13,938 bases of DNA. Source: Candidatus Zixiibacteriota bacterium (GTDB lineage Bacteria > Zixibacteria > MSB-5A5 > CAIYYT01). Each line of letters opens with the position of its first letter. Position 1 is the stretch's first letter. Where the stretch lies: NCBI GenBank assembly GCA_026397575.1, contig JAPLUP010000455.1:1-13938 (forward strand), in the 5' to 3' direction. Shown here one piece after another: positions 336 through 12,997 of the stretch. Below the pieces are notes generated by a model that ran no database searches, was not told the origin of the DNA, and saw only the letters and a list, made by a program, of their open reading frames with translations. The position numbers and the translations under genes were made by a program.

Positions 336-363
336 TTGACAGAAAAACCGTATAAACGATCTT
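336..363 (+). promoter_or_regulatory. Putative promoter of the first beta-helix gene
   Basis: TTGACA (336-341) is followed after 16 bases by GATCTT (358-363), about 40 bases before the TTG start at 405. The same pair with the same spacing, and largely the same flanks including AAACGATCTTG, stands upstream of the paralogue at 2591. The -35 match is perfect and the -10 weak (3 of 6). The conservation could reflect a recent duplication rather than selection. An EIIA terminator before it is doubtful: a small hairpin, GCGGG (302-306) with CCCGC (313-317), has no T run. Confidence 0.4.
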
Positions 364-404
364 GCCTGTGGCACGTCTTTCATGGTGTAGCCGGGAGGCA
401 CCCT

Positions 405-2393
405 TTGAAGCTCAAGTTGAGCATACTGAGAACACTGCTGACAATCGCGCTGTGTGCATTCGTCTACGCGCACGCTGCGACCCGCTACGTCTCGCATTCG
501 GGGAGCAACACGTTCCCGTATACGACGTGGGAGACAGCGGCGAACACCATCGAGGCCGCCAATCTGGCTACACTGCCGGGCGACACGATGTTTGTCGACA
601 CGGGGAGTTATCAACTCACGCAGACGATCGTCTTGCCGTCCAAGATCACTCTCCGAGGTAAGGGGATGGACTCCACCACTATTCTCGGCAGCACAGCCAT
701 TGTCGACATGTTCAAGCCGGGGGACTCGACCTACGTGGAAGACATCTACTTCCGAGGAAACAACTGGTTTCGGGGATTCACAAAATACCTGGGGGTTAGT
801 CTCTTCACTTGGACGATTACGCGCTGTAAGTTCACGAATTTCCTGAGCGCACCGATCTACTCCGCTTGGACCGAGCGCGTTGACGTGTCCCATTGCTGGT
901 TTGGGGGCTGGGGTGATCCGGGTGCTATTGCGGTGACTGATCGCGGAGACTGCACAATAACCAACTGCACCTTCTATTCTCCCGGGGTGGTGCGTCCCAT
1001 ATGCTCGTTCAGTGGCAATAGCACCGGTCATGAGGTCTTTGACTCCAACGTTGTCGTCGGGGGAGGATTCATAGGCATCAACGGGTTGGGGGGGGGCGCT
1101 GAGTTGAAGTACAACCTTTTCTGCGGCAAGTCTTATATGAGTGAGGCAGTCTACGGTGGGGTGGCCATGGAGGTTGCCTTTAATAGCTTTTATATGGACA
1201 TACCTTGGAACTTCTCCTACGCCGACGTACTCACCATTAGTTCACTGGCACTGGGCCGCGCCTACATTTATAACAACATCTTTGCCGGCATGAATCCCCG
1301 CGTCATTTTCTATTTCGATATCCCTGACTCCGCCGATATCCGGATCAACTACAACTGTTTCTATTCCAACTATCCGATGACCAGGCCTCATATCGGGCAT
1401 ACCAACGGTACCGGCATCATCGACTCCGTCTACGGCAACGTCTATGCTGATCCGATGTTTGTCGACCCTGACAACGGCGATTTGCGACTTCAAAAGGGCT
1501 CGCCTTGCATCGACGCAGGCGCGCCGTGGATTCTCGACGTTGATGGAACGCGCTCGGATATCGGCGCTTTCGGCGGGCCGGGGGGTTCGGTCTACATCTA
1601 TCAGGACCTGCCTCCGAAAGCATCGGCGAGCATGACTGCCTGGCGAGACAGAGATCGAGTCATTCTGAGTTGGGAGCGCAACAGTGAATCGGATTTCTTG
1701 CACTATATTCTCTTCCGCACGACCGAACCGGGCGCGCTGCTCGATTCGGAGCATGTGCTGACTTATCTTGATCGTCTCGGCAGACCAATCGGAAACGACA
1801 ACCACAAAGAACCACTCGGTTTCGACGACGACGGCAAGCAACTCGATCAAGAACAGTATATACCGATGTACGCTGTCAAGGATTTGCGGCGGGTCTATTA
1901 TGTCGACTGGTATCCGATTGACACGCTGACTTCTTACTACACTCTCGTGGCCGTTGATAGTTCGGGGCTGGTGTCGTCTGTGTCGTCTGTGTCGTCTGCG
2001 TCGACAGCGGCTGTAGCGGCAGGCCTTGCGCCTGCCCAGAATTCGGGCGACCGCGAGGGTCGCCCCTACGGAGCCGATGTCACGCCGCAAGACGGCGTGA
2101 CCTACGAATTGGAACCTAACTATCCGAATCCGTTCAATGCGACTACAGCGCTGGTCTACCATCTGCCCAGCATCGGTGCGCAACCCGCGCCGGTGCATAT
2201 AGAGATCTTCAACATTTTCGGTCAGAGAGTAAAAACGCTGGTGGATACGCGGCAGTCGCCGGGGCGACATACCGTCTACTGGGACGGCACGAATGAAGAA
2301 GGCCAGCCGCTGAGCAGTGGCGTCTATTTCTGCAGACTGGAGGTGTCAGGTATCGAGTTTGTTAAATCTGGTAAAATGATATTGATGAAGTGA
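405..2393 (+). CDS. Secreted right-handed beta-helix protein with Fn3-like domain and C-terminal sorting domain (paralogue 1)
   Basis: The protein is 662 aa from a TTG start at 405, chosen because GGGAGG (393-398) sits 6 bases upstream and a signal peptide follows at once (hydrophobic core, AHA-A cleavage near residue 24). An upstream start at 336 would fall on the -35 box. Residues about 25-340 form a parallel beta-helix of the DUF1565/pectate-lyase-like type, rich in short N-x-F/I rungs. Residues 345-394 carry the closing motif GSPCIDAG...DVDGTRSDIGAFGG seen in 'choice-of-anchor Q' proteins. An Fn3-like domain covers about 400-530, then a repeat-derived linker (537-568), then a YPNPFN...SGVYFCRL...GKMILMK sorting domain (569-662), the Ig-like type that directs export through T9SS-like systems. 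No catalytic residues could be assigned, so a surface-binding or polysaccharide-active role is inference. Confidence 0.85.
   Translation: MKLKLSILRTLLTIALCAFVYAHAATRYVSHSGSNTFPYTTWETAANTIEAANLATLPGDTMFVDTGSYQLTQTIVLPSKITLRGKGMDSTTILGSTAIVDMFKPGDSTYVEDIYFRGNNWFRGFTKYLGVSLFTWTITRCKFTNFLSAPIYSAWTERVDVSHCWFGGWGDPGAIAVTDRGDCTITNCTFYSPGVVRPICSFSGNSTGHEVFDSNVVVGGGFIGINGLGGGAELKYNLFCGKSYMSEAVYGGVAMEVAFNSFYMDIPWNFSYADVLTISSLALGRAYIYNNIFAGMNPRVIFYFDIPDSADIRINYNCFYSNYPMTRPHIGHTNGTGIIDSVYGNVYADPMFVDPDNGDLRLQKGSPCIDAGAPWILDVDGTRSDIGAFGGPGGSVYIYQDLPPKASASMTAWRDRDRVILSWERNSESDFLHYILFRTTEPGALLDSEHVLTYLDRLGRPIGNDNHKEPLGFDDDGKQLDQEQYIPMYAVKDLRRVYYVDWYPIDTLTSYYTLVAVDSSGLVSSVSSVSSASTAAVAAGLAPAQNSGDREGRPYGADVTPQDGVTYELEPNYPNPFNATTALVYHLPSIGAQPAPVHIEIFNIFGQRVKTLVDTRQSPGRHTVYWDGTNEEGQPLSSGVYFCRLEVSGIEFVKSGKMILMK
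1971..1997 (+). repeat. Three perfect 9-bp tandem repeats (GTGTCGTCT) inside the coding sequence
   Basis: GTGTCGTCT occurs three times without a break and in frame, encoding Val-Ser-Ser three times. It lies between the Fn3-like domain and the palindromic element at 2013. The paralogue has a single VS at this place. The unit is a multiple of three, so copy-number change would alter linker length without a frameshift. Confidence 0.85.
2013..2069 (+). repeat. GTAG...CTAC paired palindrome (REP/BIME-like) lying in frame within a gene
   Basis: The 57-base element starts GTAG and ends CTAC. It holds two hairpins: GGCAGGC/GCCTGCC (2018-2024 with 2030-2036, 5-nt loop) and GGGCGACC/GGTCGCCC (2045-2052 with 2058-2065, 5-nt loop). 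It has the same plan as the intergenic elements at 2441 and 4570. It is exactly 19 codons, in phase, and encodes residues 537-555 of the surrounding protein (VAAGLAPAQNSGDREGRPY). A third hairpin, TCACGCCG/CGGCGTGA (2080-2087 with 2093-2100), follows directly. REP elements linked to RAYT transposases characteristically have a GTAG or GGAG foot next to the hairpin; assigning this one to that class is inference. Confidence 0.75.
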
Positions 2394-2440: not shown

Positions 2441-2511
2441 GTAGGGGCACGCTGCGCGTGCCCGCGGGTGCAGCGTACGTCCGGAGCATGAGTCGAAGGA
2501 TGCACCCCTAC
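2441..2511 (+). repeat. GTAG...CTAC paired palindrome (REP/BIME-like), intergenic
   Basis: The element is bounded by GTAGGGG (2441-2447) and CCCCTAC (2505-2511). Inside are the hairpin GGGCACG/CGTGCCC (2445-2451 with 2457-2463, loop CTGCG) and the wider inverted repeat GGGTGCA/TGCACCC (2466-2472 with 2501-2507). Its first 28 bases are identical to those of the element at 4570. It fills most of the gap between the two beta-helix genes and could also weaken read-through, though no T run follows. Confidence 0.8.
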
Positions 2512-2522
2512 GAAAGAATAGC

Positions 2523-2590: not shown

Positions 2591-4573
2591 ATGATCCTCA
2601 AACGTATTCAGACAGTAGTCATCTTGTGGGCAGCCGCGTCTGCGTGTTTGCTTGCCGCGACCCGCTACGTCTCGCATTCGGGTAGCAACGCATTCCCGTA
2701 TACGACGTGGGAGACAGCAGCCAACACCATCGAAGCAGCCAATCTCGCGACCCTGCCGGGGGACACGATGTTGATAGATACGGGGAGTTTTTACTTATCC
2801 GCGCCAGTCTACACTCAGCCAAAGATCACCATGCGCGGAAAGGGGATGGATTCAACAAGAGTGCTGGGATCGGAAGCTCCCGAATTGTTGCATTCGGTGA
2901 TGTTCCTGCCGGAAGACTCCAACCTGATCGAGGACTTGCACTTTGTTGGCTCTGGCAGTCACTACGCTTTCATCAAGTCTGCAACTGATCCCGACCGGAG
3001 CTTGTTTTTCACAAGCTGTAGATTCTCCGACTTTGCGTCCTCCACTCTCGCCTGTGGAAACAACAGGCATGTTGCTGTAATCAACTGCATCTTTGAGACT
3101 TGGAATGATTTCGCCCTCTTCCTCACAGACCGCGGTGACTATGTCATCGAAAACAACACTTTCTACATGCCAGATGCCATCAACGAATTTGCCAATTTCA
3201 TCGGTAATACAGGTTCTATCGTCCTCCACAAGAACGTTTTCGTCGGCGGCGGCTGGACAGGCATTCAGGGGGGGAGCGGACGTATCGATGTCCGGAACAA
3301 TCTCTTCTACCGCAACAGGTGGCTGGAATTGGTACAGATCACCGCTGCCAGCGACGTTGTCTTTGCGCAGAACAGTTTTTTTCTTACACATAACGACTTT
3401 GGTCGCGCCAACGATATCCTGGTCCTGTACCTCGACGAGCTCGATACCTGCTTGATCTACAACAACGTTTTCGCCGGTTATCAACCGCGGCTGGTATTTA
3501 ACGCCAGTGTTACCAATGACCCCATGATCAAGATTACTTACAACTGCTTCTACGCCGTAGCGCCCTTTGGCCAAGAGGAACACATCTGGGTCCCGAACAA
3601 CCAACGGCTCGACTCCCTCCACAGTAACGTTTTTGCCGACCCGATGTTTGTCGACCCGTGGAACGGCGACCTGCGACTTCAGAAAGGATCGCCTTGCATT
3701 GACGCGGGCGCCCCTTGGATTCTCGACGTTGATGGGACGCGTTCTGACATAGGCGCCTTTGGAGGGCCCGATGGCGAGTTCTATATTTATCAGGACCTGC
3801 CGCCGAAAGCACCGGCGAGCATGATGGCCTGGCGAGACAGCAATCGCGTCATCCTCAGTTGGGAACGCAACAGTGAATCCGACTTTTTGCACTACGTGCT
3901 TTTTCGAACAACCGAACCGGGTGCGCCGCTCGATTCACAACATGTCTTGACCTACCTTGATCCTCTCGGCAGACCGATCAGAACCGACAATCACAAAGAA
4001 CCCCTCGGTTTCGACGACGACGGTAAGTATTTTGATCCCGAGCGTTATATCCCTATGTACGCTGTGAAGGATTTGCGGCGGGTCTATTATGTCGACTGGT
4101 ATCCCATTGACACGCTCCCATCGTACTACACTCTCGTCGCCGTGGACAGTTCGGGATTGGTGTCGGCCGCCAGCACAGTTCAGGTAAGCCCACCGCAAGC
4201 GGTGGGGCACCCGGTTTCCAGCGGCGTCGGGAATCCTTTCCCGACGCCAGACAGTTGCTGTCAGGAAGGGATTCATGACAGCGCGTCTTTGGAACCGAAC
4301 TATCCGAATCCGTTCAACGCCACCACCGCACTGGTCTACAATCTCCCGAGCATCGGTGCACAGCCAGCGCCGGTGCATATAGAGGTCTTCAACATTCTCG
4401 GGCAAAGAGTGAAAACGCTTGTGGATACGCGACAGTTACCGGGTCGACATACCATCTATTGGGACGGCACGAATGAACAAGGCGAACTGCTCAGCAGTGG
4501 CGTCTATTTCTGCAGATTGGAGGTGTCAGGCATCGAGTTTGTGAAATCTGGTAAAATGATATTGATGAAGTAG
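2591..4573 (+). CDS. Secreted right-handed beta-helix protein with Fn3-like domain and C-terminal sorting domain (paralogue 2)
   Basis: The protein is 660 aa from ATG 2591, with GGGAGG five bases upstream and a clear signal peptide (MILKRIQTVVILWAAASACLLA). The domain order matches its upstream neighbour: beta-helix, GSPCIDAG...DIGAFGG closing motif, Fn3-like domain, variable linker, sorting domain at 567-660. The sorting domains agree at 86 of 94 residues by my alignment, and the first 60 mature residues are nearly identical, while the central beta-helix has diverged strongly. The linker consists largely of inverted repeats (4189-4282) unrelated in sequence to the linker of paralogue 1. The TAG stop (4571-4573) lies inside a palindromic element. 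Likely cell-surface or secreted; ligand or substrate unknown. Confidence 0.85.
   Translation: MILKRIQTVVILWAAASACLLAATRYVSHSGSNAFPYTTWETAANTIEAANLATLPGDTMLIDTGSFYLSAPVYTQPKITMRGKGMDSTRVLGSEAPELLHSVMFLPEDSNLIEDLHFVGSGSHYAFIKSATDPDRSLFFTSCRFSDFASSTLACGNNRHVAVINCIFETWNDFALFLTDRGDYVIENNTFYMPDAINEFANFIGNTGSIVLHKNVFVGGGWTGIQGGSGRIDVRNNLFYRNRWLELVQITAASDVVFAQNSFFLTHNDFGRANDILVLYLDELDTCLIYNNVFAGYQPRLVFNASVTNDPMIKITYNCFYAVAPFGQEEHIWVPNNQRLDSLHSNVFADPMFVDPWNGDLRLQKGSPCIDAGAPWILDVDGTRSDIGAFGGPDGEFYIYQDLPPKAPASMMAWRDSNRVILSWERNSESDFLHYVLFRTTEPGAPLDSQHVLTYLDPLGRPIRTDNHKEPLGFDDDGKYFDPERYIPMYAVKDLRRVYYVDWYPIDTLPSYYTLVAVDSSGLVSAASTVQVSPPQAVGHPVSSGVGNPFPTPDSCCQEGIHDSASLEPNYPNPFNATTALVYNLPSIGAQPAPVHIEVFNILGQRVKTLVDTRQLPGRHTIYWDGTNEQGELLSSGVYFCRLEVSGIEFVKSGKMILMK
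4189..4282 (+). repeat. Cluster of three palindromes inside the coding linker of paralogue 2
   Basis: Three inverted repeats follow one another in the coding sequence: CCCACCGC/GCGGTGGG (4189-4196 with 4199-4206), an 11-bp perfect stem GGCGTCGGGAA/TTCCCGACGCC (4223-4233 with 4238-4248, loop TCCT), and GCTGTCA/TGACAGC (4257-4263 with 4276-4282). Also, GAATCCTTTCC (4231-4241) is nearly the reverse complement of GGAAGGGATTC (4264-4274). They code for the linker just before the sorting domain, the same place where paralogue 1 has its GTAG...CTAC element. Confidence 0.75.
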
Positions 4574-4617
4574 GGGCACGCTGCGCGTGCCCGCGGGCGC
4601 ATGCCATACGCCCCTAC
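4570..4617 (+). repeat. GTAG...CTAC paired palindrome that supplies the stop codon of paralogue 2
   Basis: The element runs from GTAGGGG (4570-4576) to CCCCTAC (4611-4617). Its first hairpin is GGGCACG/CGTGCCC (4574-4580 with 4586-4592, loop CTGCG), and its first 28 bases equal those of the element at 2441. The second arm pair is GGGCG/CGCCC (4595-4599 with 4609-4613). The TAG at 4571-4573 is the stop codon of the upstream gene, so the element overlaps the end of that gene by four bases. Confidence 0.8.
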
Positions 4618-6888: not shown

Positions 6889-7998
6889 TTAGTCTGCCAG
6901 TCGCAGAGGCATTACCAGACAGAGATAGTCGCTGGTGGGTTCCATCGTGGTGATGATCGCCGCCGAGACTGCCGTTGACAGGGAAAAACGAACCTCATCA
7001 CATTCCAACTGCTTGAGAATGTCCAGCACATAGGCCGCATTGTAACCGATTTCGATATCCTCGCCATCGTACTGGCAGGGTAATTTCTCGACCGCTTCGC
7101 CACCAAAATCGACGTTAGTTGCCGACAATTGCAACGTGTTTTTACTGATCGAGAATTTGACCTGATGGGTCAGAGCGTTGGACAAGATTGCCACACGACG
7201 CACCGTGTCGGCCAATAATGATTTGGCAACAATCAAACTCTTATTGTTGTACTTGGGGATTACTTGCTCGTAGTTGGGGTACGGACCCTCGATCACACGC
7301 GTGGAAATCGTATTGCCACCGCAAGTGAAGATAAGGTTATTTTCATTAAAGGTAACACCAACTTCAGTGATGTCGTCAACAGCCAACCGATTGACAAGGT
7401 TTAGCGCTCGCGGCGGCACAATCATGTCGCCATACAAACCCTGAAGCTTGGTATTGTCGGCTTCAATCTTCGCCAAGCGGTGACCGTCGGTAGCAACCAT
7501 CCGCATTTTCTCACCGGAGGTCTGCCAAAGGATGCCATTCAGAGCCGGTCGAGTTTCATCGTTGGAAGCGGAAAAAGCGGTTTTGTGAATCATACGGCGC
7601 AAGACATCAGCGGGTATCTTGATTTCTTTTGCCGGATTAAGCTCAGGTAGCCGCGGGAATTCATCGGCAGGCATTCCGGCAATCTTGTAGTCACCGGTAC
7701 CGAAACGCATCTCAATACGATTACTTATTGCTTCGATCTCAATGTCAGTCTGTGGTAAGGCATCAATGATCTCTTGAAATTTCTTAGCCGGAATTGCTAC
7801 CGAGCCTTTCTTGGTTACTTTCGCTTCGATCGTTGTTGTAATCGAAATTTCCAGATCAGTCGTCGATAACTTAAGTGATTTACCCTCCGTCTCCAGTAAA
7901 ACATTACCAAGTATTGGCAAAGCTGATTTAGCAGGGACAGCACTCATGACTGCGGTTAATGCAGATTGAAGCTTATCTGTCGTGACGCTGAATTTCAT
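6889..7998 (-). CDS. dnaN: DNA polymerase III beta subunit (sliding clamp)
   Basis: The 369-aa product has the normal length of the bacterial clamp (about 366 in E. coli). It starts MKFSVTTDKLQSALTAVMSAV and ends with the family motif VMPLRL (362-367) near the C terminus. In between are expected blocks such as LPILGNVLLE, FSASNDETRPALNGIL, MVATDGHRLA and EGPYPNYEQVIP. Three similar clamp domains fold into a dimeric ring that encircles DNA and tethers the replicative polymerase and other partners. AGGAG (8006-8010, complement) precedes the ATG. It lies 247 bases downstream of dnaA on the same strand, the usual order, but no recF follows; the next gene converges on it. Confidence 0.97.
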   Translation of the reverse strand: MKFSVTTDKLQSALTAVMSAVPAKSALPILGNVLLETEGKSLKLSTTDLEISITTTIEAKVTKKGSVAIPAKKFQEIIDALPQTDIEIEAISNRIEMRFGTGDYKIAGMPADEFPRLPELNPAKEIKIPADVLRRMIHKTAFSASNDETRPALNGILWQTSGEKMRMVATDGHRLAKIEADNTKLQGLYGDMIVPPRALNLVNRLAVDDITEVGVTFNENNLIFTCGGNTISTRVIEGPYPNYEQVIPKYNNKSLIVAKSLLADTVRRVAILSNALTHQVKFSISKNTLQLSATNVDFGGEAVEKLPCQYDGEDIEIGYNAAYVLDILKQLECDEVRFSLSTAVSAAIITTMEPTSDYLCLVMPLRLAD

Positions 7999-8066
7999 TT
8001 TCCGGCTCCTTTAGGTTTGTACACCACAGCCCTTATTATATCTATCTTAAGTTATCAAATCAACAA

Positions 8067-8087
8067 TAGTAATAATACTGTGGAAAT
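8067..8087 (+). promoter_or_regulatory. Possible DnaA-trio run next to a DnaA-box-like site
   Basis: TAG-TAA-TAA-TAC (8067-8078) is directly followed by TGTGGAAAT (8079-8087). DnaA-trios are repeated 3'-(G/A)AT-5' triplets beside a DnaA box in the bacterial unwinding element. The usual GC-rich spacer is missing here, so this is a weak candidate. Confidence 0.3.
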
Positions 8088-8141
8088 GTTGATTGGAAAG
8101 AGTAGAGTCCTGCAATGGAACAACATAACTCTTTGATAACC

Positions 8142-8150
8142 TGTGGAAAG
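8142..8150 (-). promoter_or_regulatory. DnaA-box-like site
   Basis: TGTGGAAAG, complement CTTTCCACA, keeps the TCCACA core of the DnaA box. It adjoins TTTGATAAC. Binding is inferred only from the motif and from its place between dnaA and dnaN. Confidence 0.35.
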
Positions 8151-8245
8151 AGAAGGTAACTTATCAATATCATTAACATTTCTGCCGTGGACTTGATCAT
8201 TTCCTTAATCACTACACACTTCTGTAACATATGATCAACAGTTTC

Positions 8246-9604
8246 TCAACCATACATCTGATTGATTAGTTGGTCAATTTGCAGTTTGTAATCAATCGAT
8301 GATTTGATATTCTCGGTCACCTGCTGACAGGCGTGGATGACCGTAGAATGATCTCGATTGCCAAACTTGGCTCCGATCATTTTCAGAGAAGATGTTGTCA
8401 AGGTCCGACAAAGGTACATAGCGATTTGGCGAGCGTTAACGATTTCCTGACTCTTTTTCTTTGCCTTCAGCAGTTCCTCGGAGATTTTGTAGAACTGCGC
8501 AACTTTTTTTTGTATCTGCTCGATGCTGATTTGCTGCGATTTTGATCGAATCGTATCCTTGAGAACTTCCTGGGCTACGGCTATGGTCAAATCCTTCTGG
8601 CGTAGCGAACTGTAGGCAATCAATCGCACCAGAGCTCCCTCAAGCTCACGAACATTCGAGGTGATCGAGTCGGCAACGTAAGTTAACACGTCCTGAGGCA
8701 CTGTTACACCGTCGCAATCGGCTTTCTTCTGCAAAATGGCGATACGAGTTTCCAATGACGGCGGCTGAATATCAGCAACCAGACCCCAACTAAAACGCGA
8801 GAGAAGGCGTTCTTCGAGACCGAGGATATTTTTCGGTGGACGGTCCGCAGTCAGCACAATCTGTTTGCCTTCTTGATGTAACGCGTTGAATGTGTGGAAG
8901 AATTGCTCCTGCGTCGACTCCTTGCCGGTGAAAAACTGAATGTCATCCACCAACAACACATCGACAGAACGATAACGGTTGACAAACTCGTGCACGGCCT
9001 TGGAACCTAAAGAGCGGATGAAGTCATTGGTGAATTCTTCGCTGGTAACGTAGAGAATGGTGTGAGTGCCGTTACTTTCACAGATATCGTTGCCGATTGC
9101 CTGCACCAAGTGGGTCTTACCGAGGCCCGAACCACCGTAAATAAACAACGGGTTATAGCGATTCTCACCCGGATTCTCTGCCACCGCTTGACAAGCTGCA
9201 TGAGCGAACTGGTTCGAATCACCGACGACAAAACTCTCAAATCGATAGCGCGGATTTAGTTTAGGCGGCGGCTGAGCAGTGCCCCTGGGTTTGCTGATGA
9301 CTACGGTTGGTTCAACATCATCGTCGGCTTCAAAAATCTCTGCTTGAAAAGGTGTCTTGCGGACTTTGACGCCGAAGTTCCATCCGGTTTCGGAAACTTC
9401 AGTCAGCACTTGCGAGATCAGAGGCCGATATCTTTCCTCAATCCAATTGGCAGCGAAGCGATTGGGGACTACAATGTTGAATGACTGGTTGTCGACATAC
9501 TCTGCTTCAGTCGGTTTCAACCACATAAAGAAGGAATTTTTCTTGACCCTTTTTGACAATTGAGACAGACATCTATCCCAAAGAATACTAATATTATCCT
9601 GCAT
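8246..9604 (-). CDS. dnaA: Chromosomal replication initiator protein DnaA
   Basis: The 452-aa product shows all DnaA domains. Domain I (about 1-75) has the conserved FFMWLKP. A short linker rich in D/E and P follows (about 90-115). The AAA+ domain has Walker A GGSGLGKT (157-164) and Walker B LLVDD (217-221). The C-terminal helix-turn-helix carries the DnaA signature FGNRDHSTVIHACQQV (about 414-429), which reads DnaA boxes. ATP-bound DnaA multimerises at oriC and opens the duplex. The ATG is preceded by GGGAGA. It is transcribed away from the 9605-10275 gap, with dnaN downstream. TTTCCACA motifs on both sides of the gene suggest the origin is here and that the gene may be autoregulated; the latter is inference. 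Confidence 0.97.
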   Translation of the reverse strand: MQDNISILWDRCLSQLSKRVKKNSFFMWLKPTEAEYVDNQSFNIVVPNRFAANWIEERYRPLISQVLTEVSETGWNFGVKVRKTPFQAEIFEADDDVEPTVVISKPRGTAQPPPKLNPRYRFESFVVGDSNQFAHAACQAVAENPGENRYNPLFIYGGSGLGKTHLVQAIGNDICESNGTHTILYVTSEEFTNDFIRSLGSKAVHEFVNRYRSVDVLLVDDIQFFTGKESTQEQFFHTFNALHQEGKQIVLTADRPPKNILGLEERLLSRFSWGLVADIQPPSLETRIAILQKKADCDGVTVPQDVLTYVADSITSNVRELEGALVRLIAYSSLRQKDLTIAVAQEVLKDTIRSKSQQISIEQIQKKVAQFYKISEELLKAKKKSQEIVNARQIAMYLCRTLTTSSLKMIGAKFGNRDHSTVIHACQQVTENIKSSIDYKLQIDQLINQMYG

Positions 9605-12570: not shown

Positions 12571-12665
12571 GTAGGCAATGCGGGTGGACTTACCAGATTT
12601 TTCACGGGCGGACGCCGTCCACCCCTACGATTCGTAGCGGCGCACGGCGTGCGCCTGACGAATCG
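12571..12665. repeat. Cluster of three REP-like palindromes with GTAG/CTAC feet
   Basis: The first part (12571-12628, 58 bases) begins GTAGG and ends CCTAC; GGGTGGAC (12582-12589) pairs perfectly with GTCCACCC (12617-12624), and GGGCGGAC (12606-12613) competes for the same arm with one mismatch. Five bases later a second unit starts GTAGCGG (12634-12640), like the element in the gene at 2013. Its hairpin is GGCGCAC/GTGCGCC (12639-12645 with 12649-12655), enclosed by CGATTCGT/ACGAATCG (12628-12635 with 12658-12665). The head-to-head arrangement CTAC-GATTC-GTAG is typical of BIME-like clusters. Confidence 0.7.
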
Positions 12666-12785: not shown

Positions 12786-12997
12786 GTCACTCCCGAGAAA
12801 GGGACTGTTGAAAAACCTCTGTGTGTGTCATTCTGAGGAGCGCGAAGCGCGACGAAGAATCTCCAAGTCGTTGCATCACCAACGTGCGAGATTCTTCACT
12901 GCGCTCAGAATGACGAACCACCGGACTTTTTCAACAGTCCCGAAAGCGGAAATCCAGTATTGAAATTAGCCTGGATCCCTGCTTTCGCAGGGATGAC
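12786..12997. repeat. 27-nt imperfect inverted repeat, left arm interrupted by a MITE-like element
   Basis: The right arm is 12971-12997 (CTGGATCCCTGC... to GGATGAC). The left arm is split: 12786-12796, then, after the inserted element and with one GAAA copy removed, 12942-12957. The joined left arm is also 27 nt and matches the complement of the right arm at 20 of 27 positions by my count. The loop is 13 nt (12958-12970). The arm ends GTCA...CCAG resemble the GTCATTCCCGC...GAATCCAG palindromes common in many bacterial genomes. Confidence 0.75.
12801..12941. mobile_element. 141-bp MITE-like non-autonomous element with perfect 15-bp TIRs and GAAA target duplication
   Basis: The left end GGGACTGTTGAAAAA (12801-12815) and right end TTTTTCAACAGTCCC (12927-12941) are perfect complements. 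GAAA flanks both sides (12797-12800 and 12942-12945). Inside are two further inverted pairs, GTCATTCTGAG/CTCAGAATGAC (12827-12837 with 12904-12914) and GAAGAATCTC/GAGATTCTTC (12854-12863 with 12888-12897), so the whole element can fold into one long hairpin. It encodes no transposase and must be moved in trans. The donor transposon family cannot be named from this window. Confidence 0.8.

Follow-up and report, generated by a model that had tools for sequence, protein, structure and literature searches.

Palindromes in the linker of a beta-helix gene

The window analysed here, that is, the whole stretch of 13,938 nt, is contig C277 of a 3.09-Mb, 719-contig Zixibacteria genome (G000). It carries two tandem paralogous genes and a set of palindromic elements, which are given below together with their state in a second species of the same genus (G001).

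336..2393, + strand: gene 1, coding for a beta-helix-like protein with a FlgD_ig tail; 685 aa as listed from TTG
1995..2138, + strand: linker ahead of the gene 1 tail (residues 554-601 of the model)
2013..2069, + strand: cassette A, two GTAG units forming a head-to-head dimer; codes VAAGLAPAQNSGDREGRPY
2079..2105, - strand: cassette B, third GTAG unit, GTAGGTCACGCCG-TCTTG-CGGCGTGAC; in frame; missing from the G001 copy
2441..2513, + strand: intergenic GTAG element between gene 1 and gene 2; not at the corresponding place of G001
2591..4573, + strand: gene 2, the tandem paralogue of gene 1
4187..4213, + strand: cassette C, palindrome AGCCCACCGCAAGCGGTGGGGCACCCG; codes SPPQAVGHP; missing from the G001 sequence
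4217..4282, + strand: cassette D, two palindromes with 11-bp arms; codes SSGVGNPFPTPDSCCQEGIHDS; common to G001
4570..4617, + strand: GTAG dimer whose foot provides the TAG stop of gene 2 (4571-4573)
12634..12655, + strand: intergenic GTAG unit, GTAGCGGCGCACGGCGTGCGCC

Cassette A is 57 nt long, starts in phase 0 and contributes 19 stop-free codons, as an earlier note on this DNA had described. Its first hairpin (2013-2036) has a stem of 7 and a 5-nt loop and has lost one pair beside the foot, where the window reads GTAGCGG and G001 reads GTAGGGG; the second (2045-2069) has a stem of 8 and again a 5-nt loop. Together with cassette B, which the earlier note did not mention, the gene 1 linker contains three GTAG units with perfect stems of 7, 8 and 9 and loops of 5. 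The element is more palindromic than chance would give: the DNA fold of 2000-2080 reached -26.1 kcal/mol against a shuffled mean of -16.8 (z -3.9), and none of 200 shuffles was as good. The RNA fold of 2010-2072 (z -3.6) also beat all 200 shuffles, and the RNA folds of the linkers in the window ranged from z -3.6 to -5.0. The foot-plus-spacing pattern occurs 6 times in the window, against 0.07 expected. The absence of a stop is by itself weak evidence, because the 57-mer is stop-free in four of its six frames, and the chance of a length divisible by three is 1 in 3.

Head-to-head (BIME-like) dimers were found at 2013-2069 and 4570-4617. The proposed likeness of cassette A to intergenic elements at 2441, 4570 and 12571 holds broadly, but those at 2441 and 4570 begin with 3-nt-loop units, and for the third the scan for perfect GTAG hairpins of at least 7 bp gave none in 12571-12628 and flagged 12634-12655 instead. 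Gene 2 of the window ends on the TAG of a GTAG foot, whereas its G001 counterpart ends on TGA, before its repeats. Cassettes C and D are not standard-form GTAG hairpins, and the second palindrome of cassette D has one broken pair in the window copy. An unpaired CGTC tag beside the stem, as in a CGTC REP, was not found in cassette D, where the fold places CGTC inside the stem of GGCGTCGGGAA-TCCT-TTCCCGACGCC.

In the AlphaFold2 model of the gene 1 product (mean pLDDT 70), linker residues 554-601 have pLDDT values below 50 (22-42 in blocks of ten) and no secondary structure; a variable alignment may be partly responsible for this low confidence. The FlgD_ig/YPNPFN tail follows directly on the C-terminal side, and the part preceding the tail is, in our own reading, FN3-like. 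The model is in agreement with the idea of a disorder-tolerant linker just ahead of the export tag.

Three other observations concern the window. The repeat GTGTCGTCT stands in tandem at 1971-1997, shortly 5' of cassette A. An imperfect inverted repeat of a different kind, with arms AGCGCGACGAAGAATCTC and GAGATTCTTCACTGCGCT, occupies 12846-12905. The genes dnaN and dnaA are adjacent at 6889-9604, and their proximity suggests that the locus is near the replication origin.

The REP family and a RAYT gene

The pattern GTAGGGGC-N(10-16)-GCCC gave 31 rows in G000 versus 1 for the reversed pattern, 15 versus 3 in G001 and 11 versus 5 in G002. The family is thus dispersed in G000, as the earlier note had expected, at a copy number that is low for a REP family. 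The rows represent 30 distinct units, since the C540 copy shares the same 60 bases with C130. Coding calls were based on our own codon model and on open frames; by these, 29 of the 30 units lie outside modelled CDS, in keeping with the intergenic position described as normal for such elements. The sole unit inside a CDS is the second half of cassette A; the first half carries GTAGCGGC and falls outside the pattern. We found no further copy of hairpin 1 of cassette A in the examined G000 or G001 loci, and a BLAST search of the whole of G000 with this hairpin returned short matches only; the only other strong match to cassette A in G000 was a half element. Cassette B begins with GTAGGTCA, and units of this type occur in two further contigs, C2 (L104) and C714 (L181). 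D-type palindromes occupy 18 places in G000 (control, 0) and the C palindrome occupies 3, one of them within mnmA.

A profile search recovered six Y1_Tnp matches in G000, and the one taken on to the RAYT model NF047646 scored 141.8 bits against a cut-off of 80. This match, on contig C603 (L007, 747-1882), supplies the Y1-transposase (RAYT/TnpA-REP) gene for which a search had been proposed. It has inverted GTAGGTCAAAACCGCTTCGGTTTTGAC hairpins on each side, the flanking GTAGGTCAAAACCG...CGGTTTTGAC hairpins lying in inverted orientation within about 1.2 kb, and the gene and its hairpins likely constitute a REPtron. The flanking hairpins are of the GTAGGTCA type, like cassette B, and not of the GTAGGGGC type seen in cassette A. 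A single GTAGGGGC unit does lie within about 1.4 kb of each of two further Y1_Tnp matches, L005 and L009.

Across the class, parts of the G001 form of cassette A were matched in 30 of 132 genomes. Dimers of the form GTAGGGGC...GCCCCTAC, a pattern that the window's own dimer with its GTAGCGGC does not fit, were found 184 times in 40 of 132 genomes versus 11 times in reverse (summed forward columns). The examined loci, a non-random sample taken from search matches and judged with our own codon model instead of a gene finder, contained 81 distinct dimers, of which 3 are coding by the codon model, 15 lie in an open frame without backing from the model and 63 lie outside.

Linker composition in the gene family

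The protein search yielded 108 relatives of the gene family. We analysed 40 of them (P0002-P0042 without P0011, whose tail was unrecognised by the script and whose linker is C + D2), with linker DNA for the four linkers of the window and G001 genes and at the protein level for the other members. In these sequences, the linker is a mosaic of five cassette types: A is present in 11 members (one partial), B in 6, C in 11, parts of D in 12 and E in 2. By our own motif list, 27 linkers contain one or more cassettes and 13 are cassette-free, and the family includes relatives both with and without the 19 residues of cassette A. The position is filled by different palindromes in different relatives, so that a pool of selfish repeats seems to supply the material from which the linker is rewritten.

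The 12 linker types on the 40 rows require at least 18 changes (the least possible number being 11) on a tree of the protein without linker and tail, which is a quick tree with flagged long branches. Taken by cassette, the changes number 8 for A versus not-A, 7 for C and 7 for D. The linker types are also clustered on this tree, since the shuffled mean was 25.4 changes and none of 200 shuffles was as low as 18. Members P0004 and P0007, with 86% identity over the body and 98% over the tail, have wholly different linkers; P0032 and P0034 (body 81%, tail 91%) comprise one cassette-free linker and one with A. The linkers of genes 1 and 2 of the window are likewise wholly different, their tails being 91% and their bodies 59% identical. 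Other tandem pairs, such as P0010 and P0027 (body 46% identical, tail 98%), share the tail and part of the linker despite bodies that are far apart, which shows that recombination between copies is ongoing. Since tandem paralogues also exchange tails, some of the 18 changes may represent recombination of longer stretches.

In the 10 members with a full cassette A, the frame, the orientation and the spacer are constant. The spacer is AGAATTC in both DNA copies and is confined to this linker among the examined loci, whereas 12 other dimers of the cassette A type in these loci have different spacers. Given this constancy, and with no more than half an element as the other strong match in G000, cassette A seems to have been passed from linker to linker; it probably spread between copies of this linker and not by repeated fresh insertion. 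Residue changes among the 10 members affect 14 of 70 cells in loop and spacer codons and 8 of 120 in stem and foot codons.

Comparison of two species

In G001, cassette A occupies the corresponding position and differs at 3 of its 57 nt; cassette B, two of the GTGTCGTCT repeats and the 2441 element are absent. Cassette D, but not cassette C, is present in the second G001 gene, which lies on a different contig. The G001 counterpart of gene 1 (L074, 1064-3010) has an internal TGA in its beta-helix part, so this copy may be a broken gene or a misassembly.

We compared the codons of the cassettes with those of their host genes. In cassette A, all 19 third positions are the same in the two species, with 0 synonymous and 3 non-synonymous codon differences; the synonymous, palindrome-destroying changes that had been named as evidence against a palindrome origin are not seen in the G001 copy. 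Over the aligned gene 1, 350 of 663 third positions are the same, with 208 synonymous and 182 non-synonymous codon differences. Cassette D shows 22 of 22 identical third positions, with 0 synonymous and 2 non-synonymous differences; the aligned part of gene 2 shows 135 of 221 (45 of 98 in the FN3-like part and 64 of 94 in the tail). When 567 windows, each of 19 codons, were compared, all 19 third positions were identical in just two, which begin at 2013 and 2010. In the beta-helix part, the window at 1326 has 18 of 19, and the windows at 1326-1331 tie with cassette A in plain nucleotide identity (54 of 57). Since the cassette DNA is more alike than the host genes, it is either younger than the split of the genes, having arrived or been exchanged later, or under selection for its structure. 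On this sequence comparison, the cassettes probably postdate the split of their host genes, a reading that we favour over selection because other linkers of the family are cassette-free and the small number of changes observed fail to maintain pairing.

Palindromes in other genes

In-frame palindromes were found in other coding genes, at the DNA level in mnmA, queA, ruvC and a G026 ORF, as for the linker, and at the protein level in relatives of QueA. A gene fragment on contig C91 of G000 was identified as mnmA by its score of 315 bits against the MnmA model (cut-off 284); in it, SPPQAVGHP is encoded by the C palindrome in the stretch before KIRYLHKP. At the protein level, such a peptide is present in the close MnmA relatives P0230, P0231 (twice, plus a D-like stretch) and P0232 and absent from P0233-P0244. 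The queA gene of G012 contains a 62-nt GTAG dimer (L126, 1501-1562), and neighbouring bases must complete its frame, since 62 cannot be divided by three; the same gene contains another hairpin further on. Nine full QueA relatives of one Zixibacteria-like lineage (P0110-P0118) have lengths between 348 and 508 aa and carry inserts at about four places, seen at the protein level except in P0110, and from their sequences these inserts look repeat-encoded; more distant QueA proteins that we saw are mostly about 337 aa. A GTAG unit also lies within ruvC of G012. In G026, an in-frame GTAG dimer (L223, 1001-1060) stands just after the MPNHLHGIVVI stretch of a Y1-transposase-like ORF that scores above the cut-off of the Y1 transposase Pfam model (26 versus 23) and below that of the RAYT model (61.4 versus 80).

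We then considered how general such insertions are. In a sample of 60 G000 contigs (about every ninth; 243,185 bases), no GTAG-footed hairpin lies in modelled CDS and 2 lie outside, and we rejected the idea that in-gene REPs are common in this genome. With seven added contigs that were not chosen by the step (67 contigs, 286,868 bases), 3 of 13 strong hairpins are in CDS, none of them GTAG-footed. A G012 sample of 286,880 bases contains 4 in CDS (the two halves of the queA dimer, the ruvC unit and one weak ORF) and 3 outside. A general link between palindromes and export-tag linkers was rejected as well. The 40 YPNPFN-type matches in G000 include 29 distinct tails, 11 being omitted as duplicates or for want of a YPNPFN-like anchor, and a hairpin of at least 8 bp occurs in the 210 nt upstream of 2 of the 29, both of them the window paralogues. 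Export tags are not special, since palindromes also enter the folded enzymes MnmA, QueA and RuvC, and the proposal that palindromes serve as linker material before an export tag stands for this gene family but not in general.

Origin of the coding palindromes

We consider it likely that cassette A is a REP-type palindrome, a GTAG-footed head-to-head dimer, that has turned protein-coding in a hinge since rewritten by recombination and by other palindromes. In a single member of a multi-copy gene family, a REP dimer would have inserted into the unstructured hinge that precedes the secretion tail, presumably through RAYT-mediated transposition, and would have been tolerated there because it is a multiple of three bases with an open frame, the inserted residues being probably neutral. 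The hinge would then have been rewritten repeatedly: recombination among paralogues and relatives would carry cassette A between linkers, and other palindromes of the genome (B, C and D) would join or replace it. Several findings count against this explanation: the C603 RAYT gene is flanked by REPs of the GTAGGTCA type and not of the GTAGGGGC type, hairpin 1 of cassette A has no further copy in the examined loci, tails are exchanged as well, the linker types are clustered on a quick tree, a beta-helix stretch equals cassette A in plain nucleotide identity, and the G001 copy may be broken or misassembled.

The identity of cassette A between the species could instead come from selection on the hairpins as RNA or DNA structure, for example in slowing ribosomes before the secretion tail or in mRNA decay, with the peptide as a by-product. 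The two species show 0 synonymous changes in 41 cassette codons, while third positions differ by 47% in gene 1 and by 39% in the aligned gene 2; the strong RNA folds of the window linkers, and the concentration of cassette A residue changes in loop and spacer codons, fit such selection. However, a third or so of the family (13 of 40) does without any cassette, unrelated palindromes substitute for each other, and stem-breaking changes (GTAGCGG, TTCATGAC) are seen with no compensating changes, which makes this explanation quite improbable. We regard as less probable still, and indeed very unlikely, a single old insertion in the ancestor of the family that was inherited vertically as an ordinary protein linker. 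The constant frame, orientation and spacer in the 10 full-A members, the shared place of cassette A in G000 and G001 and the clustering of linker labels on the tree agree with it; but the body tree needs 8 changes for A and 18 for all linker types, the third positions of the cassettes are far more alike than those of the gene, and G000 and G001, although of one genus, do not agree in B, C and the 2441 element.

Repeated direct insertion of REPs in many lineages, RAYT favouring the hinge as its target, overlaps in part with the explanation that we prefer and has a better claim than either of these, although we still think it unlikely. Different palindromes do occupy the same place, copies of C and D exist elsewhere in the genome, and CT, the dinucleotide given as the cleavage site of TnpA-REP in PMC8266576, lies directly 5' of the GTAG foot of cassette A in both species. 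On the other hand, the spacer, frame and orientation of cassette A are the same wherever it is seen, C and D do not have the standard GTAG form, and CT is the 5' neighbour of none of the 30 canonical G000 units, so that a CT target as a general rule is unsupported.

The preferred explanation, a REP dimer turned coding and rewritten by exchange, can be extended, as a doubtful but possible generalization, to permissive protein loops of this lineage at large: these would be lasting insertion sites at which palindromic cassettes of several repeat families keep replacing one another. Selfish REP-like DNA might then go on supplying new linker sequence, to surface proteins as well as to housekeeping enzymes (QueA, for one), at a pace above that of change in the flanking domains.

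Comparison with known systems

In-frame REPs and Rickettsia palindromic elements (RPE) are already known. In Di Nocera et al. (2013, PMC3733652), GTAG REPs are described as forming head-to-head dimers with stems mostly of 6-9 bp and in-frame inserts of 20-30 residues, their feet provide TAG stops, and recB of two Xanthomonas species carries different REPs at about the same site. The window resembles these intragenic REPs in its GTAG foot, such stems, head-to-head dimers, an in-frame insert and the foot-derived TAG stop of gene 2. It differs from them in that a single linker position of a gene family holds palindromes of several families, alternately or stacked, in presence and absence within a genus, and in DNA that is more conserved than the host gene. 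RPE are palindromic repeats that lie in frame in unrelated genes (PMC3733652 and PMC10969869). The insertions described here are likewise palindromic and in frame in coding genes, but RPE are given as about 150 bp long, whereas our elements are about 23-70 nt and their host is an environmental Zixibacteria bacterium. The G000 RAYT gene, which inverted GTAG hairpins flank on either side, resembles the REPtrons of TnpA-REP (PMC8266576); it differs in that its hairpins are of the GTAGGTCA type of cassette B and not of the GTAGGGGC type of cassette A.

Our search of the open-access literature listed no report of REP palindromes in Zixibacteria genes, nor any on sorting-domain proteins with palindromes in their linkers. 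What looks new is that several palindrome families are exchanged at one linker, both between species of a genus and among the members of a gene family. Protein-coding palindromes are known from Rickettsia and listed in some REP-rich bacteria, but their turnover has seldom been observed. The linker described here, compared across tandem paralogues and related genomes, displays gain, loss and exchange of several palindrome families, and it offers a defined locus at which both the entry of REPs into genes and the feeding of protein evolution by selfish DNA are testable.
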